From Nitrospirota bacterium (GTDB lineage Bacteria; Nitrospirota_A; Leptospirillia; Leptospirillales; Leptospirillaceae), in NCBI GenBank assembly GCA_021838765.1, contig JAKCCY010000061.1:1-15298 (forward strand): 15,298 nt of DNA, given 5' to 3'. Below, one piece after another: positions 3 through 15,272 of the stretch. The notes beneath the pieces were generated by a model that worked only from the letters and a program-made list of their open reading frames with translations, made no database searches and had not been told where the DNA came from. Position 1 is the stretch's first letter. Every line of letters begins with the position of its first letter. Both the position numbers and the translations under genes were made by a program.

Positions 3-590
3 CCGGAGCTGGTCCTTCCGTCCAATCCTCTCCCGGTGGGGATCGATGTGGGCATTAAAACCTTTGCCTCTCTTTCCGATGGGACGGCCATCGAAAACCC
101 GAAGTTCCTGAAACGCTCCGCCAAAAGACTGGCGCAGGCCCAGCGGAAACTGGCTCTTCAGGAAAAAGGCTCTTCGGAACGAGCCAGGATCAAAAAGGTG
201 GTGGCGAAGATTCATGAACGGATCGCTTTTAAGCGATCCGACTTCGCCTATCAGGAAGCCCGAAAGATCGTCAATGCGTATGGACGGATCTTTGTTGAGG
301 ATATTACGGTCAACGAAATGAACTCCCACCGATGCCTGAACCGAAGCATCCGTGACGTGGCGTGGTCGCAATTCTTCCTCTTTCTCTCGTACAAAGCTGA
401 AAATGCTGGTCGGGAGTTCAGGAAGGTGAATCCGGCCTATACAAGCCAGACCTGTTCCTCCTGTGGCCATCGGCAGAAGATGCCGCTGTCCTGCCGGACG
501 TATGTCTGTCCGTGTTGTGGAATGGAAAAGGATCGGGACCACAACGCCTCCCTGAATATTTTGAGACTCGGCCTTTCGTCTCGGGGTTAG
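3..590 (+). CDS. tnpB: TnpB (IS200/IS605 OrfB family), C-terminal part, cut by window edge
   Basis: This is an RNA-guided RuvC-like endonuclease carried by IS200/IS605 and IS607 elements. The frame is open back to base 3 with no stop, so the N-terminal half lies outside the window; the GTG at 36 is an internal valine codon. Counting from that codon, the three RuvC motifs are intact: GIDVGIKT (D4), VEDI (E88) and DRDHNASLNI (D166/D168). A zinc ribbon lies between motifs II and III, with CSSC at 140-143 and CPCC at 158-161. The Arg/Lys-rich stretch at about 25-75 fits the nucleic-acid-binding bridge of the family. Full TnpB proteins are about 370-420 aa, so roughly half is seen. No frameshift or missing catalytic residue is visible, so the protein could be active. 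A hairpin right end follows the stop at once, as expected. Whether a tnpA partner exists cannot be seen. Confidence 0.93.
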   Translation, partial: PELVLPSNPLPVGIDVGIKTFASLSDGTAIENPKFLKRSAKRLAQAQRKLALQEKGSSERARIKKVVAKIHERIAFKRSDFAYQEARKIVNAYGRIFVEDITVNEMNSHRCLNRSIRDVAWSQFFLFLSYKAENAGREFRKVNPAYTSQTCSSCGHRQKMPLSCRTYVCPCCGMEKDRDHNASLNILRLGLSSRG

Positions 591-1323: not shown

Positions 1324-1353
1324 TTGCCTCCCGGATATACGCTCGGGTAGAAT
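1324..1353 (+). promoter_or_regulatory. Possible sigma70-type promoter for the PpiD-like gene
   Basis: TTGCCT (1324-1329) and TAGAAT (1348-1353) are separated by 18 bases, giving 4/6 and 5/6 matches to the -35 and -10 consensus. It starts within a few bases of the yaiI stop and would give a leader of about 80 bases before ATG 1439. It is read by eye only. Confidence 0.35.
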
Positions 1354-1438
1354 GGCAGGATTGTTTCAGATTTTTTGTTGGCCAAAGCAGTCCCACAGTC
1401 AAGAATGCCCCTCTAACATAGGAAAAACAGGCAAAACC

Positions 1439-2152
1439 ATGCTCGAGATGATCAGAAAGTTTGCCATTGAAAAGCCAAAGATCCTGGGAGGACTCATCCT
1501 CTTCATCGCCATCATCTTTACGGTCTCGATGGGCTGGTGGGGATTTGCCAACTCCCGCTCTTCCCAGGGGGACATCGTGGCCAGGATCAATGGAACTCCG
1601 ATAAAAAGTACGGAGTTCGCCAGGGACTTTTCAATCATGAAGAACAACTACCAGCAGATGCTCAATGGGCCCATGGGATCAAAAATCCTGAAGCAGCTGA
1701 ACTTTCCGGGGCTGGTTCTGAGAAACATGATCTACCGTCAGCTTTGGGCCGACGAGGGGAAAAAACTTGGGCTTGTTGTTTCAGACGAAACAATTATCAG
1801 GGAGATCTCCCAGATTCCTTTTTTCATGGAGGGAACACCACCAAGGTTTTCAAAACAGATCTACACACGATTTCTGACCGGAACGCATCAAACAGCAAAA
1901 CAGTTTGAAGAGTCCATCAGAAAAGACCTTCTTGTTCAAAGAGCCCAGGTCATTGTCCGCGCAACTGCCGGATCACCCATCCCCGCACCCGTTTCTCCAG
2001 GTGCCCCGCCGGCAACAATGGTTGACCAGCAAAAAAATGCGCTTAAACTCGAGGAAGAGACCGTTCAATCCTTTCAGACACAGCTTGAAAACAGCGCAAG
2101 CATCAAGATTGACCAGGACGTCCTTAAAAAAGTTTCCCAGTCCCTGCTTTGA
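1439..2152 (+). CDS. Membrane-anchored SurA-N/PpiD-like protein without a PPIase domain
   Basis: The protein has 237 aa. Residues 14-36 form a single N-terminal membrane anchor (ILGGLILFIAIIFTVSMGWW) after a short basic cytoplasmic tail, the arrangement of PpiD, an inner-membrane periplasmic folding factor. VARINGTPIKSTEFARDF at 47-64 is the typical opening of a SurA N-terminal chaperone domain. The helices to about 175 fit it, with the conserved segment ...LRNMIYRQLWADEGKKLGL then VSDETII. In PpiD and SurA one or more parvulin PPIC domains would follow. Here there is only a Pro/Ala-rich linker (180-193) and a short helical tail (FQTQLENSASIKIDQDVL) that resembles the closing segment of such proteins. 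It is therefore likely a holdase-type chaperone without isomerase activity. ATG 1439 gives a PpiD-like N-terminus; longer in-frame starts add non-homologous sequence. The SD is weak. Confidence 0.75.
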   Translation: MLEMIRKFAIEKPKILGGLILFIAIIFTVSMGWWGFANSRSSQGDIVARINGTPIKSTEFARDFSIMKNNYQQMLNGPMGSKILKQLNFPGLVLRNMIYRQLWADEGKKLGLVVSDETIIREISQIPFFMEGTPPRFSKQIYTRFLTGTHQTAKQFEESIRKDLLVQRAQVIVRATAGSPIPAPVSPGAPPATMVDQQKNALKLEEETVQSFQTQLENSASIKIDQDVLKKVSQSLL

Positions 2153-6102: not shown

Positions 6103-6987
6103 TCAAGGCTGCGCGGAGCACTTTTGCAATTCTTTCAGAAACTCTGAAGAGAATCGGCCACTCATCACAGAAGAAACAGGTCCTTCCATCCGGACATCCC
6201 CGGACTTTGACACATCAATCGTGAGCTCCCCGCCCGGCATTGTAACCCGTACAGGGCTTTTAACCTTTCCCAGGTGCACAGAAACAGATGCCGCCGCACA
6301 AGAAGATGATCCGGAAGCCAGCGTATATCCTGCTCCTCTTTCCCAGATCCGGATTTCAATTTGATCCTCTCCTGTCACCTTGACCATCTGTGTATTGATT
6401 CGCCGGGGAAAAAGAGGATTGTTTTCAATGGCCGAACCCCACTTTCTGATCCAGTCTTCATCAATTTGATCAACAAAGAAAACAAAATGAGGATTCCCCA
6501 CCGAAACAGCTGTTCCGCTGATCCGGACTCCCTGCCCCAGGTCAATCTCTTTTTCAATATGGGGAGCCAGGGCTCCCTTGACCCCAACCTTTTCCGGATC
6601 CATGGTATAGCTTCCCATATCAACAAGGACCCGTTTCACTAGACGGTCATCGCCCAGAGTCACCCGCGCCGAAACCATTCCTCCCAGAGTTTCGATCTGA
6701 AAAGATTCGCCTTTTGCATAACCGTATTCGTAAAGGAACTTTGCAAATATCCGGAGCCCGTTTCCGCTCTTCTCCGCCTCGCTGCCATCAGGATTGAAGA
6801 TACGCAGTCCAAAGGGCTCCCGGTCACGCGTCAAAAGAAGGATTCCGTCCGACCCAACGCCATAATTCCTGTCACAGATCAGCTGGATCATTTCGGGTGA
6901 CCATGAAAGACCGGAAGGAGGAGCCGTCATAACAATGTAATCATTTCCTAATCCATGAGACTTGATAAAATCCTGATCCAAAGCCAT
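6103..6987 (-). CDS. dapF: DapF-like protein with both catalytic Cys replaced by Ser
   Basis: The protein has 294 aa and is collinear with diaminopimelate epimerase, the PLP-independent enzyme that interconverts LL- and meso-DAP for lysine and peptidoglycan synthesis. Substrate-binding motifs are intact: HGLGND at 11-16, GVGSDGIL at 43-50, NPDGSE at 65-70, GNPH at 164-167, the Asn of RRINTQM (N198) and ERGAG at 216-220. In active DapF the two acid/base residues are cysteines in CGNGxR and CGSGxCA. Here these read SGNGLR (S74, codon AGC) and SGSSSCA (S225, codon TCC). Cys230 is in the non-catalytic position five residues on. Epimerase activity with serine at both sites is doubtful. The protein may be a binding or regulatory paralogue, or act by another chemistry. 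ATG 6987 has AAAGGAA six bases upstream. The TPR lipoprotein gene lies 38 bases upstream and is probably in the same operon. Confidence 0.85.
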   Translation of the reverse strand: MALDQDFIKSHGLGNDYIVMTAPPSGLSWSPEMIQLICDRNYGVGSDGILLLTRDREPFGLRIFNPDGSEAEKSGNGLRIFAKFLYEYGYAKGESFQIETLGGMVSARVTLGDDRLVKRVLVDMGSYTMDPEKVGVKGALAPHIEKEIDLGQGVRISGTAVSVGNPHFVFFVDQIDEDWIRKWGSAIENNPLFPRRINTQMVKVTGEDQIEIRIWERGAGYTLASGSSSCAAASVSVHLGKVKSPVRVTMPGGELTIDVSKSGDVRMEGPVSSVMSGRFSSEFLKELQKCSAQP

Positions 6988-7025: not shown

Positions 7026-7919
7026 CTAAATCCCGGGTGCCGCTGTCGGAGAGACATCTGAGTGTTCGCGAGGCCCTCTCCCAAGTGCCTGGGCCTCAAG
7101 CGCCATCTCCAGATCCCGGCGGGCCTTCGGGTCGGACGGACGAATCTGCAGTGCCCTCCGGAATGACTCGATGGCCTTTCCAATCCGGTTCTTCCTGAAG
7201 TAAGACTCCCCATTGCGTGTATGGAGGGCAACCTCTTCCAGTATCCGTTTTTTTAACTCCAGGGAATCGGTATCCGAAGGATCCAGCAACAGGGCTTTTT
7301 TAACAGACCGGTATGCACCAGCCGGATGGTTGGAAGAAAAGCGACTCTGTGCAAGATGCCGGTAGGACCAGGCCAGTGTCCGGTCAAGCTCCGGGTTTGC
7401 CGGCCCCTCCTTCCGGAGGAGAAGAAGACGGTTTGACAATGCTTCCCATTGCCTTCCCATCTGATTCTGGACTTCTATCAAAATCAGCAGATGCCGCCGG
7501 GCCCTTTGGGGGATATTCCAGCCGGGATCGAGCCGGCTCGCCTGCGAAACCTTTGAAAGCGCCTCGTTCAGATGGCCGACCCGCTCCAGCTGGCGAGCCT
7601 CCCCCATCCTGTAGATAGCCATTTCTCTGTTGATCTGGTGTTCAAGCCCGGAGAGCAGACGCTGATTTTTTGTGTTGAGAGAAGGGTATTTTCTCCATGC
7701 CAGGGCAATGGCTTCTGCCTTTGAGAATTCATTGCGGGCAAGATCAGCGCGGGCATCATTGTATGCATGAACAAAGCGGCTATTATTACGGGCGACAAGC
7801 GCATCATTTTGCTGAGGATGGGAGAGGATACACCCGGATAGAAACATTGTTCCGGAAACAAGAAGTATCTTGGCCCGATTGGCAAGGCAACAACCTTTTT
7901 CCATTTTCCAAAGAACCAT
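7026..7919 (-). CDS. TPR-repeat lipoprotein
   Basis: The precursor has 297 aa. ATG 7919 is preceded by GGGAGAGG. The basic/hydrophobic leader ends in a lipobox, LSGC, with Cys30 as lipidation site. Residue +2 is Ile, not Asp, so sorting to the outer membrane is expected. The mature part is almost all helical, with tetratricopeptide patterns: ARQLERVGHLNEALSKVSQ then DPG at about 107-133; AYRSVKKALLLDPSDT at about 202-217; and a clear complete repeat, GESYFRKNRIGKAIESF with RRALQIRPSDP, at about 237-264. Such lipoproteins act as protein-protein docking factors in the envelope (assembly of outer-membrane, pilus or polysaccharide machines); no partner can be named here. The frame extends 17 codons further upstream, but those lack an SD. 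It is followed 38 bases later by the DapF-like gene. Confidence 0.8.
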   Translation of the reverse strand: MVLWKMEKGCCLANRAKILLVSGTMFLSGCILSHPQQNDALVARNNSRFVHAYNDARADLARNEFSKAEAIALAWRKYPSLNTKNQRLLSGLEHQINREMAIYRMGEARQLERVGHLNEALSKVSQASRLDPGWNIPQRARRHLLILIEVQNQMGRQWEALSNRLLLLRKEGPANPELDRTLAWSYRHLAQSRFSSNHPAGAYRSVKKALLLDPSDTDSLELKKRILEEVALHTRNGESYFRKNRIGKAIESFRRALQIRPSDPKARRDLEMALEAQALGRGPREHSDVSPTAAPGI

Positions 7920-7968
7920 ACAGCCTCTCCCGGAGATTAAATCTTGAAGGCATGACAGAGAGCCCAAC

Positions 7969-8199
7969 ATGATCGCTCACGAAATCATCGGAGATGCCAC
8001 CGGCAACAAAACTTTGTACCCCGATGCATCCTCTGGGAGGCCACGGACATCGGCCGCCTGGCGGAAATTGGAATCTCCAGCCTGAAGCACGGCCTTGAAC
8101 CGGCAGAAGACATCCCCGATTTTCCCCGACAGATTCATGATCGATGGCTCGCCGGAAGCTTCCCGATGACAGCGCCCAACATCAGGTTCGCGCAATAAT
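7969..8199 (+). pseudogene. Possible decayed plus-strand gene, frameshifted
   Basis: The 345 bases between the TPR gene and dksA carry no intact gene that I can support. Two plus-strand pieces look protein-like in different frames. ATG 7969 begins MIAHEIIGDATGNKTLYP. From about 8028, one frame over, comes ILWEATDIGRLAEIGISSLK, continuing through HGLEPAEDIPDF and on to a TAA at 8197-8199. A one-base change near 8013-8027 would join them into a protein of about 75 aa. The minus strand offers a competing 53-72 codon frame with similar codon use and no recognisable domain. I cannot identify a family, so the call is tentative. 8200-8264 shows nothing convincing. Confidence 0.25.
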
Positions 8200-9661: not shown

Positions 9662-12600
9662 TCAGGAAATCTCATCTCCCGCAAACCCCTTTGGCGATTG
9701 GGGAAGTTTTCCGGTGAGCGAATAGACCACGGGCAGCACCAGAAGAGTGAAGAGAATCGCAGTCACAACTCCTCCCACGATAACGATTGCCAGAGGCTTC
9801 TGGGCCTGATTGCCTATTCCTGTTGAAAGAGCCGCAGGCAGAAGACCAAGTCCGGCAAGAAGTGCGGTCATCAGCACAGGACGCACCCGGAGCTCTCCGC
9901 CTTTTGTGATCGCTTCGGCCATCCCCATTCCTTCCTGCCTCAACCTTGTTACAAAATTGATCAGGATCATTCCGTCCTGGATCGCGATGCCAAACAGGGA
10001 CAAGAATCCTATTGCCGCGGAAATAGACAGATGATGTCCTGTCAGGTAAAGAGCCCAGACCCCACCCGTAAGAGCAAACGGTACGGAAAGAAGCTGGACA
10101 AAGGCATAACCAACCGACTGGTAGGACCAGTACAGGAGCAAAAACATGATTCCAACGGCAATTGGTGCCAGGATCAGAAGCCTCGACTGGGCTTCCTTCA
10201 TTTCCCTGTACTCCCCGTACCACTGGATCCTGTAACCTGCCGGCATCGGAACATTCTTTGAAATGAGGCTTTTGGCCTCATCAACCGCGCTTCCTATATC
10301 CCTGTGGCGAACGGAAAACTTTACAGGAATATAGCGGGAGTTTTGCTCGCGAAAGATGTAGGAGTTCCCGTTCTTGACCTCAATGGTCGACAGCTGGGAG
10401 AGAGGAATGTGCGATCCGTCAGGAGTGTCGACCAGAATAGACCTGATCGCCTTGATATCCTTCCGGTATTTTGCGGCAAGCCGGATCGTCACGTCGAAAC
10501 GCTCCTCCTGCTTTAAAATCTGGGTAACAGCCACTCCACCAACAGCGGTCTGGATGACATTCTCAACATCCTGGGCATGGACACCATAACGGGCACAGGC
10601 TGACGGGTCAACGCGAATGAGAAGCTCCTGGCCTCCACGAATCCTGAAAATACCAAGATCGGCCATTCCCTTTACAGAAGACAGAAGGGAAACGGTCCTT
10701 TGCGCAAGTCGCTCAAGCTCTTTTGGATCCGGACCAAAGATCTTGAGGCTGTTCTGGCCTTTCACCCCTGATACCGCCTCTTCCACATTGTCCTCAATAT
10801 ACTGTGACACATTAAACGTCACACCTGGGATCCCATGGAGCTTTTTCAGGATTTCGGCCTGGATCATTGCTTTTGTCACACCAGGACGCCATTGTTTCTC
10901 GGGTTTGAAAAACACTGCAAATTCGGCATTCCAGAACCCTCCGACATCATAGGCGTCATCCGGTCGACCCTCCTCCGATGTCACAACCTTGATTTCCGGG
11001 GTTTCAAGAATCATTCTCCTGATGCCATCAGTCATCTTTGCCCCATAGGGAAGACTGACAGAAACAGGATAGGTGGCCCGTATGTAAAGGTTGTTTTCTT
11101 CAAGCTTGGGAAGAAACTCTGTCCCAAGTCTCGGAAGAATGATCAAAGAGGTTAAGATGAGAAAACCTCCTGCCAGAGTCAGCGTTACAACCTTGTTGGC
11201 AAGAACCCACGAGAGAAGAAACCGGTAAGACCGCTTCACCAGGCGCATCAGGAATGTATCTTCATGGGGGGAAACATTTGAGAGTGCTGCAGAAGAAATA
11301 GCCGGAGACAAGGTCATCGACAGGATCACCGCCGCCAGAAGACCTCCACCCATCGTATAGGCCATCGGGGTGAAAATCTTGCCTTCAACCCCCTTCATGA
11401 ACAAAAGGGGGACATAGGCTGCAAAAACAATCATCGTTGAGAAGACAGTGGCTCCCTGCACCTCTGTTACCGCGGAAAAGACAATCAACCGCGTGTCCGT
11501 CTTGTCGCCAGAAGGCCTTTCCATAAGATGCCGGTAGATATTTTCCACAACAATGACCGAAGCATCCACAAGAATTCCGAAATCGATCGCGCCAAGTGAC
11601 AGAAGGTTCGCCGAGATTCCCTTCAGCTTCATCAGGGAAAATGCGGCAAGCAGGGCAACAGGAATCGTTACGGCCACAATCAGGGCTGAGCGCAGATTTC
11701 CCAAAAACACATATAGCGTCAAAAGGACCAGCGTGATTCCAAGAGACAGGTTCTCAAGAACGGTATGAAGCGTCCAGCCCATCAATTCCGTTCTGTCGTA
11801 GAAGGTATTGATCTTGACCCCTTTGGGCAGATCGTGGGCCCGGATTTCCTCCACTTTCTTGTGGACACGCTCAAGAACATGCCGGGTGTTGGCCCCTCGC
11901 AATAAAAGGACAACTCCTTCGACCGTGTCATTGTTCAGATTCCGTCCAACCCGGCCAAGCCGGGGCTGGGGGCCAATCTGCACGGTAGCGATATCCCGGA
12001 TCAGAACAGGTGTTCCCTTGACCTCGGCAACCATGATCTTGCCGATATCCTCCCGGTTCCTCAAGAGCCCTATCCCCCTGACCACCTGGGCGGTCTCCCC
12101 GAAATTCAGGACATAGGCACCCACATTGTTATTGGCTGCCGAGACAGCTGCCATCACCTGGGCAAGGGTCAGGTTGTAGTCTCTAAGACGGCTCATGTCG
12201 ACCAGAATCTGGTACTGTCTGATCCATCCGCCCATTCCGGATTCATCAGCAACCCCGGGGATCTCCTTGAATCTTCGCTCAAGAACCCAGTCATCCAGTG
12301 TCTTTAGCTCATCAAGCGGGGCACCTGAAAGCGTATATCGATAAATCTCACCCGTTGCCGGCGTATTGATATCCAGAACCGGCACGATTCCTGCTGGAAG
12401 GTTGGCCTGAGCGGTCCGGTTGTAAATGCGGTGTCTGGCCTCAAAATCATTGACATTGCCGGAAAAAATAGCCATCACCACAGACAGGCCGTACATGGAG
12501 ATCGATCGCTGGGCTTTCATTCCCGGAGTTCCGTTGATCGCAATCTCAATGGGGAGGGTGATCTGGCGTTCAACCTCTTCAGCCCCTCTGCCTGGCCACT

Positions 12601-12751
12601 GGGTCAGGACTCTCACCATAAGGGGCGATACGTCCGGATAGGGCTCAATTTGCAGGTTCTGGTAAGAAACAACTCCAAGAACAACCACGACAACGCTCAG
12701 CAGATAGACAAAAACTCTTTCCCTGAGGGCCAGCTTAAGAAGGGTCCTCAT
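9662..12751 (-). CDS. Heavy-metal RND efflux pump, CzcA/CusA (HME) family
   Basis: This is a proton-driven inner-membrane pump of 1029 aa, typical for HME-RND proteins. TM1 lies at 12-30 after a short cytoplasmic start. Then come a large periplasmic domain, TM2-6 (about 335-490), a second periplasmic domain and TM7-12 in the last 180 residues. The proton-relay helix TM4 reads AIDFGILVDASVIVVEN, with D390, D396 and E403 conserved. This DFGxxVD pattern is that of divalent-cation (Zn/Co/Cd/Ni) HME pumps; E. coli CusA has a different pattern there. The second periplasmic domain has IEDNVEEAVSGVKG where CusA carries a substrate methionine, so Cu/Ag specificity is not supported. It is the last gene of an operon of outer-membrane factor, adaptor and pump. 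Its ATG overlaps the adaptor's stop (TAATG at 12753-12749). Exact substrate is uncertain. Confidence 0.93.
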   Translation of the reverse strand: MRTLLKLALRERVFVYLLSVVVVVLGVVSYQNLQIEPYPDVSPLMVRVLTQWPGRGAEEVERQITLPIEIAINGTPGMKAQRSISMYGLSVVMAIFSGNVNDFEARHRIYNRTAQANLPAGIVPVLDINTPATGEIYRYTLSGAPLDELKTLDDWVLERRFKEIPGVADESGMGGWIRQYQILVDMSRLRDYNLTLAQVMAAVSAANNNVGAYVLNFGETAQVVRGIGLLRNREDIGKIMVAEVKGTPVLIRDIATVQIGPQPRLGRVGRNLNNDTVEGVVLLLRGANTRHVLERVHKKVEEIRAHDLPKGVKINTFYDRTELMGWTLHTVLENLSLGITLVLLTLYVFLGNLRSALIVAVTIPVALLAAFSLMKLKGISANLLSLGAIDFGILVDASVIVVENIYRHLMERPSGDKTDTRLIVFSAVTEVQGATVFSTMIVFAAYVPLLFMKGVEGKIFTPMAYTMGGGLLAAVILSMTLSPAISSAALSNVSPHEDTFLMRLVKRSYRFLLSWVLANKVVTLTLAGGFLILTSLIILPRLGTEFLPKLEENNLYIRATYPVSVSLPYGAKMTDGIRRMILETPEIKVVTSEEGRPDDAYDVGGFWNAEFAVFFKPEKQWRPGVTKAMIQAEILKKLHGIPGVTFNVSQYIEDNVEEAVSGVKGQNSLKIFGPDPKELERLAQRTVSLLSSVKGMADLGIFRIRGGQELLIRVDPSACARYGVHAQDVENVIQTAVGGVAVTQILKQEERFDVTIRLAAKYRKDIKAIRSILVDTPDGSHIPLSQLSTIEVKNGNSYIFREQNSRYIPVKFSVRHRDIGSAVDEAKSLISKNVPMPAGYRIQWYGEYREMKEAQSRLLILAPIAVGIMFLLLYWSYQSVGYAFVQLLSVPFALTGGVWALYLTGHHLSISAAIGFLSLFGIAIQDGMILINFVTRLRQEGMGMAEAITKGGELRVRPVLMTALLAGLGLLPAALSTGIGNQAQKPLAIVIVGGVVTAILFTLLVLPVVYSLTGKLPQSPKGFAGDEIS

Positions 12752-13863
12752 TAACGGACCTGTCTCTTTCGAGGTGTTGGCAACACTCCCCGGTTCAGAA
12801 GGTCCTGTCTCATGTTTTCAAGAAGGATCGCCCCGGAAACAGCAATCGTCTCTCCGGACGAGACTCCTGAGAAAACAGTCATTTCTCCGTCCGACTCGTC
12901 ACCGGCAGAAACTTCCCTCGTCACAAAAGATCCAGGTGCCGTTTCAACAAAAACATGATACCCCTGGTCATCCCTGATAAAGGCAGCATCAGGAAGAGCG
13001 ATTTCTCCCGTTGGCCGGTCAAGGCTGATGATGACAGAGGCAAACATTCCCGGTTTCAACAAGTTATCTATATTCGAGATTTCCCCTCTTACATGAAATG
13101 TACGCGTTGCCGGATCGACCATCCCCCCCAGATAAATGATCTTTCCACCAAAACTCATCTCGGGATAGGCAACGGTATGAACCATGATTTTCTGTCCCTG
13201 TCGAACCAGGGGGAGATCTCCTTCAAAAATATCCATATAAACCCAGAGTTTCGAGAGATCCGCAATTGTCAGTAGCTGGTCTCCCGGATTCATGAAGAGT
13301 CCTTCCCTCAGCTGGGAGTTCAGGATCGTCCCTGCCCTGGGAGAGTGGATCGTGAGATAAGGATCAATTTTTCCCGTTCTGGAAAGTCTTGAAAGGTCTT
13401 TTTCCGAAGCACCCATCAGTAGCAGTTTCTTTGCCACCGCCTGGATATAGGATTTGGCTTCCGATGCGTCCTGGGACGTCTTCGCTACCCTGAATGCATT
13501 CAGATACTCAACTTCTGCAGTCACATAATCGGGACTGTAGACCTTGGCCAGGTCATCGTTTTTGGAAACCCTCTGTCCCTCAAAGGCCAGGATCTTGACC
13601 TCCCTGGCAGCAACTCTTGCCGAAATAACCGAAACTCTGCCCTCGTCAAAATTGATCGTTCCGGTTCTACGAATCGTCCGTGAAATTCTCCTGGGAACAG
13701 CGACCTCTGTCTTGACCCAATGTGCCTTGATCTGCTCAGGAGTCAAAGTCAGAACGGTCTGATCCAAAGGTAGCGCAAGAAGGAAGGAAGGAGAACAAAA
13801 ACCTCCAAGAAGCAGGGTCAAAAACAGGATCAGAGCAAATGGCAAATATCTTCCAGATCTCAT
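12751..13863 (-). CDS. Periplasmic adaptor (membrane fusion) protein, CzcB/CusB family
   Basis: The precursor has 370 aa. It bridges the RND pump and the outer-membrane factor in the periplasm. Residues 1-30 form a secretory signal or N-terminal anchor (hydrophobic FALILFLTLLL, then LLA-LP as possible cleavage site). The beta-barrel/lipoyl part begins with INFDEGRVSVISARVAAREV. The first half-lipoyl motif is EGQRVSKNDDLAKVYSPDYV at about 95-114, followed by a short helical hairpin (VEYLNAFRVAKTSQDAS ... KKLLLMGAS). The second half-lipoyl is SPRAGTILNSQLREGLFMNP, then LWVYMDIFEGDLPLVRQGQ, and a C-terminal membrane-proximal domain. No His- or Met-rich metal-chaperone segment is seen, unlike the N-terminus of CusB. 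Start and stop both overlap the neighbours by one base (TAATG at 13865-13861 and 12753-12749), which points to translational coupling. Confidence 0.9.
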   Translation of the reverse strand: MRSGRYLPFALILFLTLLLGGFCSPSFLLALPLDQTVLTLTPEQIKAHWVKTEVAVPRRISRTIRRTGTINFDEGRVSVISARVAAREVKILAFEGQRVSKNDDLAKVYSPDYVTAEVEYLNAFRVAKTSQDASEAKSYIQAVAKKLLLMGASEKDLSRLSRTGKIDPYLTIHSPRAGTILNSQLREGLFMNPGDQLLTIADLSKLWVYMDIFEGDLPLVRQGQKIMVHTVAYPEMSFGGKIIYLGGMVDPATRTFHVRGEISNIDNLLKPGMFASVIISLDRPTGEIALPDAAFIRDDQGYHVFVETAPGSFVTREVSAGDESDGEMTVFSGVSSGETIAVSGAILLENMRQDLLNRGVLPTPRKRQVR

Positions 13864-15272
13864 TACTTCACCTCTTCCCGGGATTTCATCCCCGAATTTT
13901 CCCCGCTAAGCTCAGGAAGGGATTCCCCAACTGCCGCCTCGAGATTTGAAAGGGCCTGGTAATACCCGATCAGGTTTTGGTAACCCGCATACCTGGCTTG
14001 CCTGTACGCCTGTATCGCACTGATCAGATACAAAAAATCGTTTTTCTGATTCTCATAACCCGTAAGAGCCAGATCAAAGGCCAGGCGAGTCTGTGGAACA
14101 ATCTCCCGGTCACTGATCTCATACTGACGGTAACCCAGAACAACCTGGGAGTATGAGTTGTCCACGTTCAGGCGAACCTGTACCGCCTGCCACTGATACT
14201 GAAAATCCGCAGACCTGACCTGATCAGCCGCCGAATCGACCTGGGGTTTTTGTTTCATCATGGCAAAAATGGGAACATTGACCTGAAGCCCCGCGTAATA
14301 ACAGTTCAGGCCCGAGAACCCGTAGCAGGATTCCCCTCCCATCGATCCTTCAAACTGGAAATCAGGCAGATACCCCATCTTTGTCAGAGTCAGCTGATGA
14401 CGGTTCAATTCGAGATTGGTCTCGCTCGACAGGAGGTCCGGCCGGTTTTTCAAGGCCAGCGCCTCAAGCCCTGAAAGCGGTCTGGAAAAAGAAACGGGAG
14501 CTGAAGGAGAATCGATCTCGACAGGGGTGTCTGGAGGGTAGGCCAAAAGGGCATTAAGCTGGCGTCTTGCGATCATCTCAGACATTTCCGCAGTGAGCTG
14601 GTCGAGCTTGGCCTGGGACAGCTGAACCTTTGCATTGACCACGTCGAGTATCTGGGCCGACCCAACCGAAAGCTTCGTTCTTGTGATATCCAGAACCCTT
14701 GCCAGCCAGTTCTGCATTTCAAGATTCAGGGAGAGAGATTTCTGGGCCAAAAGCAACTGGAAACAAGCCATTTCAGTCTGGTTTCGCAAAGATACCTTCT
14801 GGGCCTGATAAGCAAGATATGCGCTTTTTGTATTATCCCTGTTGATCTGGTATCCAATCTCCGACTTTCCCGGAAAAAGGACACTTTGGGTAATGGCCCA
14901 GTTGTTGCCAGACTGGTAGGGAAGGCCCTGGCCATTGGGACCATTCCCCTGCTCACCCGCTCCGAAGAGATACTGAATCTGCGGATCGGCTGGAGCCAGA
15001 GCCGTCACTTCGAGTTTTTTCGTGGACTTCCACGAAGCCTTATAGGCCAGGATATCAGGATTTTTCCGCAGTGCGATGTCTACGGCCTGCGAAACAGTAA
15101 GCCTCCTCGGCACCGGAGACTCATCCGCCCCCGCAGCTGAACTTTTGAGGGACTGATTCTGCCCCGTCTCCGCCATTTCAGTCGCAGCAAAGGATTCGCC
15201 GGAGCCAAATCCCATCAGGATCAGTAAAAACAGAATATCTATAAACCGAAGGCATTTAGAAAATGTCAACAT
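13863..15272 (-). CDS. TolC/CusC-family outer-membrane efflux protein
   Basis: The precursor has 469 aa and forms the trimeric outer-membrane exit duct of the efflux system. A signal peptide spans residues 1-29/30 (MLTFSKCLRFIDILFLLILM core, SFA-A cleavage). There is no lipobox, unlike CusC. Two structural repeats follow: LTVSQAVDIALRKNPDILAY at 58-77 opens the first, and LEALALKNRPDLLSSETNLE at 269-288 the second. The long helices carry the usual Ala/Gln/Leu heptads (TRTKLSVGSAQILDVVNAKV, with LSQAKLDQL). The first outer loop is Gly/Asn-rich (GAGEQGNGPNGQG). The second contains Cys316 and Cys324, which could form a disulfide at the cell surface. ATG 15272 has GGAGAT six to seven bases upstream. 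Only 26 bases remain before the window edge, so the operon promoter and any regulator are probably outside. Its TAA overlaps the ATG of the adaptor gene. Confidence 0.9.
   Translation of the reverse strand: MLTFSKCLRFIDILFLLILMGFGSGESFAATEMAETGQNQSLKSSAAGADESPVPRRLTVSQAVDIALRKNPDILAYKASWKSTKKLEVTALAPADPQIQYLFGAGEQGNGPNGQGLPYQSGNNWAITQSVLFPGKSEIGYQINRDNTKSAYLAYQAQKVSLRNQTEMACFQLLLAQKSLSLNLEMQNWLARVLDITRTKLSVGSAQILDVVNAKVQLSQAKLDQLTAEMSEMIARRQLNALLAYPPDTPVEIDSPSAPVSFSRPLSGLEALALKNRPDLLSSETNLELNRHQLTLTKMGYLPDFQFEGSMGGESCYGFSGLNCYYAGLQVNVPIFAMMKQKPQVDSAADQVRSADFQYQWQAVQVRLNVDNSYSQVVLGYRQYEISDREIVPQTRLAFDLALTGYENQKNDFLYLISAIQAYRQARYAGYQNLIGYYQALSNLEAAVGESLPELSGENSGMKSREEVK

Follow-up and report, generated by a model that had tools for sequence, protein, structure and literature searches.

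A dapF homologue encoding serine at both positions of the catalytic cysteine pair was found on the minus strand at 6103..6987 of a 15,298-nucleotide stretch of Nitrospirota DNA, the whole of which is referred to here as the window. We consider its product, a 294-aa protein of what we term the Ser/Ser subfamily (Cys/Cys and Ser/Cys likewise denote the residues at the same two sites), to be probably the enzyme that converts LL-diaminopimelate (LL-DAP) to meso-DAP in this organism, having displaced the classical dapF of the lysA-dapF-dapA-dapB cluster (probability of approximately 0.65). Gene exclusion and the pathway context make it quite likely that the protein has DAP epimerase activity, and the proposal that Ser74 and Ser225 form the acid/base pair has even odds. 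The broader view, in which a cofactor-independent, two-serine epimerase lacking catalytic cysteines provides the meso-DAP from which whole Nitrospirota families and members of several other phyla build their cell wall and lysine, has a similar chance of being right or wrong; its range would include the relatives of Leptospirillum and, by inference, most Nitrospira-type genomes.

Two-base epimerization by a thiol/thiolate pair is typically illustrated by DapF, which has also been proposed as a target for antibiotics. If a natural and widespread Ser/Ser form works, it would indicate that the fold is capable of epimerase chemistry without a thiolate, would turn weak-base proton abstraction into a directly testable question, and would lie one step past the Ser/Cys and Ser/Thr precedents of the proline racemase superfamily. 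If it is inactive, 49 of 144 genomes would be without a known DAP epimerase, and a novel one would await discovery. As judged from the alignments, what is new here is a conserved natural Ser/Ser subfamily of DapF; Ser/Cys and Ser/Thr relatives are already published (PMC4113996). No natural Ser/Ser DapF was named in the titles and beginnings of abstracts of the best matches from the open-access literature searched, outside of which most subscription journals lie.

A full-length DapF homologue with two serines

The open reading frame starts with ATG and is full-length (6987 to 6103 of the window, minus strand). Its product scored 239.7 bits against the NCBIfam DapF profile TIGR00652, the equivalog cut-off of which is 114.65. 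The AlphaFold2 model (mean pLDDT 96.1) has the DapF fold, and the closest solved folds are those of DapF enzymes. Whereas classical DapF (TIGR00652; 8qzy, 4ijz, and 9mro) has a catalytic cysteine at each of two helix N-termini, the window protein has Ser74 (AGC, 6766..6768) directly ahead of the helix formed by residues 75-87 and Ser225 (TCC, 6313..6315) directly ahead of that formed by residues 226-238, with both codons on the minus strand. The serine at the second site also separates it from the Ser/Cys type of the proline racemase superfamily. Position 73 is occupied by lysine (AAG, 6769..6771, minus strand), which is invariant in the Ser/Ser rows of the alignment and in place of which the Nitrospirota Cys/Cys rows have Met or Phe.

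Side chains that grip both ends of DAP were present as N15, N65, N165, N198, E216, and R217. These contacts were transferred by mapping onto Anabaena DapF, in which the equivalent residues contact the two ends of aziDAP, as described in a structural report (PMC12039745). The motifs HGLGND, NPDGSE, GNPH, and ERGAG were found in the translation together with N198, and the original observation of a serine at both catalytic positions combined with the retention of DAP-gripping residues was, therefore, confirmed. The residue following ERGAG is Tyr in the window protein; Glu is usual at this position in Cys/Cys proteins, and many Ser/Ser members have it as well.

The source genome (G000) has 104 contigs totaling 1.98 Mb and a completeness of 80.5%; the window is on contig C102 and extends beyond the contig end. 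The closest named relative at the DNA level was Leptospirillum sp. (L039, 69% identity), which places the organism among the relatives of Leptospirillum. The assignment of the surveyed genomes to Nitrospirota follows the names of matching proteins; family f1 is probably Leptospirillaceae, and family f10 is probably Nitrospira-like. The DNA-level contig search was performed with a single-protein query and returned one locus, and the whole-genome survey described below, therefore, covers Nitrospirota only.

Distribution in Nitrospirota and the lysine pathway

A search of 148 Nitrospirota genomes with TIGR00652 gave a match in 144, in all of which the gene or a piece of it was read. Eighty-seven genomes had only Cys/Cys, 49 only Ser/Ser, and 4 only Ser/Cys forms, 2 had both Ser/Ser and Cys/Cys, and 2 had partial genes. 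Each of the Cys/Cys-only and Ser/Cys-only genomes had one gene, as did 48 of the Ser/Ser-only genomes, the other one (G004) having two Ser/Ser genes. Ser/Ser and Cys/Cys genes co-occurred in 2 of the 142 fully classified genomes, both of family f7; the Fisher value for this exclusion (1.7e-31) ignores kinship and is not usable as a probability, and relatedness among the genomes limits the number of independent events behind it. This near mutual exclusion makes a DAP-binding sensor, one of the roles suggested earlier for the protein, unlikely. The two copies in G004 (loci L114 and L115) are on different contigs with the same neighbors, and perhaps reflect two strains binned together.

Seventeen genomes, including 13 Ser/Ser-only ones, were searched with PF01678 at E values of up to 10, and no other gene over the cut-off was returned; a few sub-threshold pieces had a best E of 0.008, and the second gene of G004 was again Ser/Ser. 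A search for a second, Cys/Cys DapF in the source genome also found none, and the possibility that the window gene is the only DapF homologue of its genome held for G000 as assembled (80.5% complete) and for the same-genus G002 (a single contig, 99% complete). No DapF match was found in 8 of 21 Leptospirillaceae genomes, all eight at most 89% complete; the completeness figures predict only approximately 4 such absences. There was no DapF match in G074 (99% complete) or, even at an E value of 10, in G154 and G168 (family f23, one genus; 98 and 96% complete).

Regarding the remainder of the pathway, LysA was over the cut-off in 17/17 genomes tested, as was MurE, which carried in all 17 the DNPR motif that we take to be the mark of a DAP-adding MurE. 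DapL was over its cut-off in 12/12 genomes outside Leptospirillaceae, 9 of them Ser/Ser-only. Among 13 Leptospirillaceae genomes, it exceeded the cut-off of 593.25 bits in 2, scored 581-591 bits in 8, and had no full-length counterpart in 3, and a full DapL-like match was missing in 6 of the 21 Leptospirillaceae genomes scored for DapF. Ddh (DAP dehydrogenase) was over its cut-off in none of the 17 and none of the 21 genomes (five common to both sets); weak Ddh-like proteins in G066 and G133 reached 117 and 113 bits against a cut-off of 180.6. The product of DapL is LL-DAP and the substrate of LysA is meso-DAP, and a DAP epimerase is, therefore, still required; only Ddh among the two would bypass DapF. 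The earlier suggestion that meso-DAP may be made through DapL or Ddh instead was not borne out. The DapL route fails because its LL-DAP needs an epimerase, even though the source genome has a protein just under the DapL cut-off (590.1 bits), and Ddh could provide a bypass in principle, which we rejected in the absence of a match over the family cut-off in the genomes tested.

The argH-lysA-dapA-dapB cluster was without dapF in 7/7 Ser/Ser-only genomes read (of the 49), whereas dapF adjoined lysA or dapA in 15/15 Cys/Cys or Ser/Cys loci read, lying between both in 12 and beside one in 3. One of these 15 loci belongs to G026, which carries a further Ser/Ser copy elsewhere. The simplest account of the missing dapF in Ser/Ser-only genomes is displacement by the Ser/Ser gene at another location. 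In G000 (L255 5385-5939) and G002 (L254 3412-3966), the slot filled by dapF in other genomes, between lysA and dapA, holds an ORF of 184 aa. The G002 copy had no NCBIfam match, and the other five Ser/Ser clusters showed no such ORF; it could be a novel enzyme.

Considering this distribution, it is unlikely that the Ser/Ser protein no longer epimerizes DAP and has another role, such as DAP sensing, with an unrelated novel epimerase making meso-DAP. The loss of both textbook catalytic residues would agree with such a change, and the long stem of the Ser/Ser clade (1.16 changes per column) also fits a new function, as do the scanned neighbors without lysine genes, the presence of both forms in the two f7 genomes, and the absence of the Ser/Ser gene from eight Leptospirillaceae genomes; nevertheless, co-occurrence is confined to 2 of 142 genomes, the 13 Ser/Ser-only genomes searched have no PF01678 protein of another type over the cut-off, and the DAP site is conserved.

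Conservation of the subfamily and a possible serine mechanism

Two homologue searches, each represented by the best 120 of 8000 scored rows and, thus, giving no measure of the frequency of Ser/Ser among all DapF, provided 239 Ser/Ser rows: the 120 best matches including the window protein, 118 further proteins, and the second query. Rows of less than 230 residues were excluded from the alignment counts and signature comparison, and those of less than 240 residues from the tree. Lys73-Ser74 and Ser225 were present in 239/239 rows, both queries included, and N65, N165, N198, E216, and R217 were invariant in the same set; N15 was found in 238, the remaining row being a gap. The equivalent of Anabaena Thr226, which is Ser227 in the window protein, was Ser in 194 and Thr in 45 rows. 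Ser/Ser with Lys73 was also read in 71/71 loci (repeat fetches of some genes included), and the dapF genes of both same-genus genomes (G001 and G002) were Ser/Ser. Source names, available for a minority of the Ser/Ser proteins listed, include Nitrospirota, Leptospirillum, Thermodesulfobacteriota, Dadabacteria, Armatimonadota, WOR-3, NC10, Dehalococcoidia, and Binatia. The signature against the Cys/Cys rows of Nitrospirota includes, in addition to S74 and S225, the residues Y17, P66, K73, I80, and G102, which set the Ser/Ser proteins apart.

In the mechanism that we propose, DAP would be bound as in DapF, as suggested by the conservation of contact residues, the alpha-carbanion would be stabilized with the help of the two helix N-termini, and the proton would be relayed by Ser74 and Ser225 on the two faces. 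The invariant Lys73 may tune this serine relay.

Compared with cysteine, serine is a much weaker acid, which argues against this mechanism. Previous reports describe DapF catalysis as that of a thiol/thiolate pair and a Cys-to-Ser swap employed to hinder it for crystals (PMC12039745; structures 2q9h and 2q9j), as well as greatly reduced turnover when cysteine is changed to serine in the related histidine racemase HisR (PMC11602996). Natural precedents are present in the proline racemase superfamily, in which a Ser/Cys 4-hydroxyproline 2-epimerase and a Ser/Thr trans-3-hydroxyproline dehydratase are active and have been solved, and in which some clusters are stated to be without one or both cysteines (PMC4113996). 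These enzymes resemble the window protein in their related fold (4lb0 and 4k7g were among the fold matches) and in having Ser at the first site, but act on another substrate, and the solved examples have Cys or Thr at the second site, in contrast to Ser in the window protein.

An independent variant, in which only the first of the two sites is Ser and the second is Cys, was found in Nitrospirota at L117, L119, L208, and L097 (genomes G069, G131, G153, and G151, respectively). It shares the first serine with the window protein, but keeps the second cysteine and has a separate origin. Ser/Cys was found in 120/120 relatives of the L208 protein (the best 120 listed), and this dapF adjoins lysA in G069, G131, and G151, the three genomes with context read. 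The clade represents a ready comparison for the Ser/Ser form.

This comparison bears on Lys73. It is improbable that the protein is a DAP epimerase with a base other than serine, the proton being abstracted by Lys73 or some other residue. K73 is invariant together with S74 (239/239 rows) and occurs in none of the 100 Cys/Cys rows from Nitrospirota, in which position 73 is Met in 99 and Phe in 1; however, this position is Phe or Leu throughout the independent Ser/Cys clade (127/127 rows), and residues of the loop holding position 73 make no direct hydrogen bond with the substrate in DapF structures (PMC12039745). On these alignments, a tuning role for Lys73 in a serine-based reaction is possible.

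An altered substrate or reaction, such as another amino-acid racemase or an elimination, with the loss of DAP epimerization, is very unlikely. The solved relatives of the window protein do include the O-ureidoserine racemase DcsC (7vdy), which has a different substrate, Ser also occurs among the dehydratases of the proline racemase superfamily (PMC4113996), and Cys-to-Ser glutamate racemases retain elimination activity (PMC8142540). Against this stand the invariant distal DAP contacts N65, N165, N198, E216, and R217 and the pathway gap that such a change would leave in 49 genomes.

Origin and selection

The tree was constructed from 51 representatives of 537 rows, picked by identity clustering. 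With columns 73, 74, and 225 removed, the Ser/Ser proteins formed one clade (support 100/98), which, together with the 239/239 rows, bears out the earlier suggestion of a distinct subfamily. The Ser/Cys proteins formed a separate clade (97/87) nested among other Cys/Cys proteins. A single origin of both was rejected (joint clade, AU p 6e-11), which on this tree implies at least two replacements of Cys by Ser at the first site. The Ser/Ser proteins of f1 and f10/f18 were separated in the free tree, although their joint clade was not rejected (p 0.21), and we, therefore, make no claim of two independent gene displacements. Of 39 loci, 23 encode S74 by AGY and 16 by TCN, and all 39 encode S225 by TCN, several of these loci being repeat fetches of one gene; as an argument on the origin of the serines, the codon classes may be taken as suggestive only.

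The window dapF differed from its 90% relative in G001 of the same genus by a dN of 0.052 and dS of 1.11 and from the G002 gene by a dN of 0.070 and dS of 1.23, which corresponds to a dN/dS of approximately 0.05. This purifying selection indicates that the gene is not decayed and, with the clade-wide conservation, supports the earlier argument against simple decay. A sequencing error or chance is contradicted by the same substitutions in G001 and G002. A decayed gene or sequencing artifact, in favor of which there is nothing except the missing cysteines, may be dismissed given this dN/dS and identical substitutions in 239/239 rows.

Gene neighborhood and other genes in the window

A TPR-repeat protein of 314 aa is encoded 38 bases upstream of dapF (7026..7970, minus strand; identified by ORF and domain searches). 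A related TPR-type neighbor was present in G002, G006, and G004, but not in G008, and in 0/11 loci of other families. Lysine genes were not found among the scanned neighbors of Ser/Ser dapF, which itself lies outside the lysine cluster. The idea of a functional partner encoded beside it was considered and rejected, the scanned neighbors being TPR, UvrC, glyoxalase, polysaccharide deacetylase, M50 peptidase, and short-chain and zinc-type dehydrogenases. The zinc-type alcohol dehydrogenase family was the only neighbor family that recurred across two lineages, lying within a few kb of Ser/Ser dapF in Leptospirillaceae (G004, L114 7726-8772; G008, L116 6896-7966) and family f18 (G079, L089 9608-10609; G125, L091 8096-9106).

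Elsewhere in the window, an OrfB/TnpB-type transposase fragment carrying a Cas12f1-like TNB domain is located close to the edge (36-590, plus strand), followed by a protein with a SurA-type N-terminal domain, the Pfam matches of which do not include the PPIase domain (1352-2152, plus strand). An RND efflux set occupies 9662-15272 on the minus strand and consists of an AcrB-family pump (1029 aa), a HlyD/CusB-type fusion protein, and an outer-membrane efflux protein.
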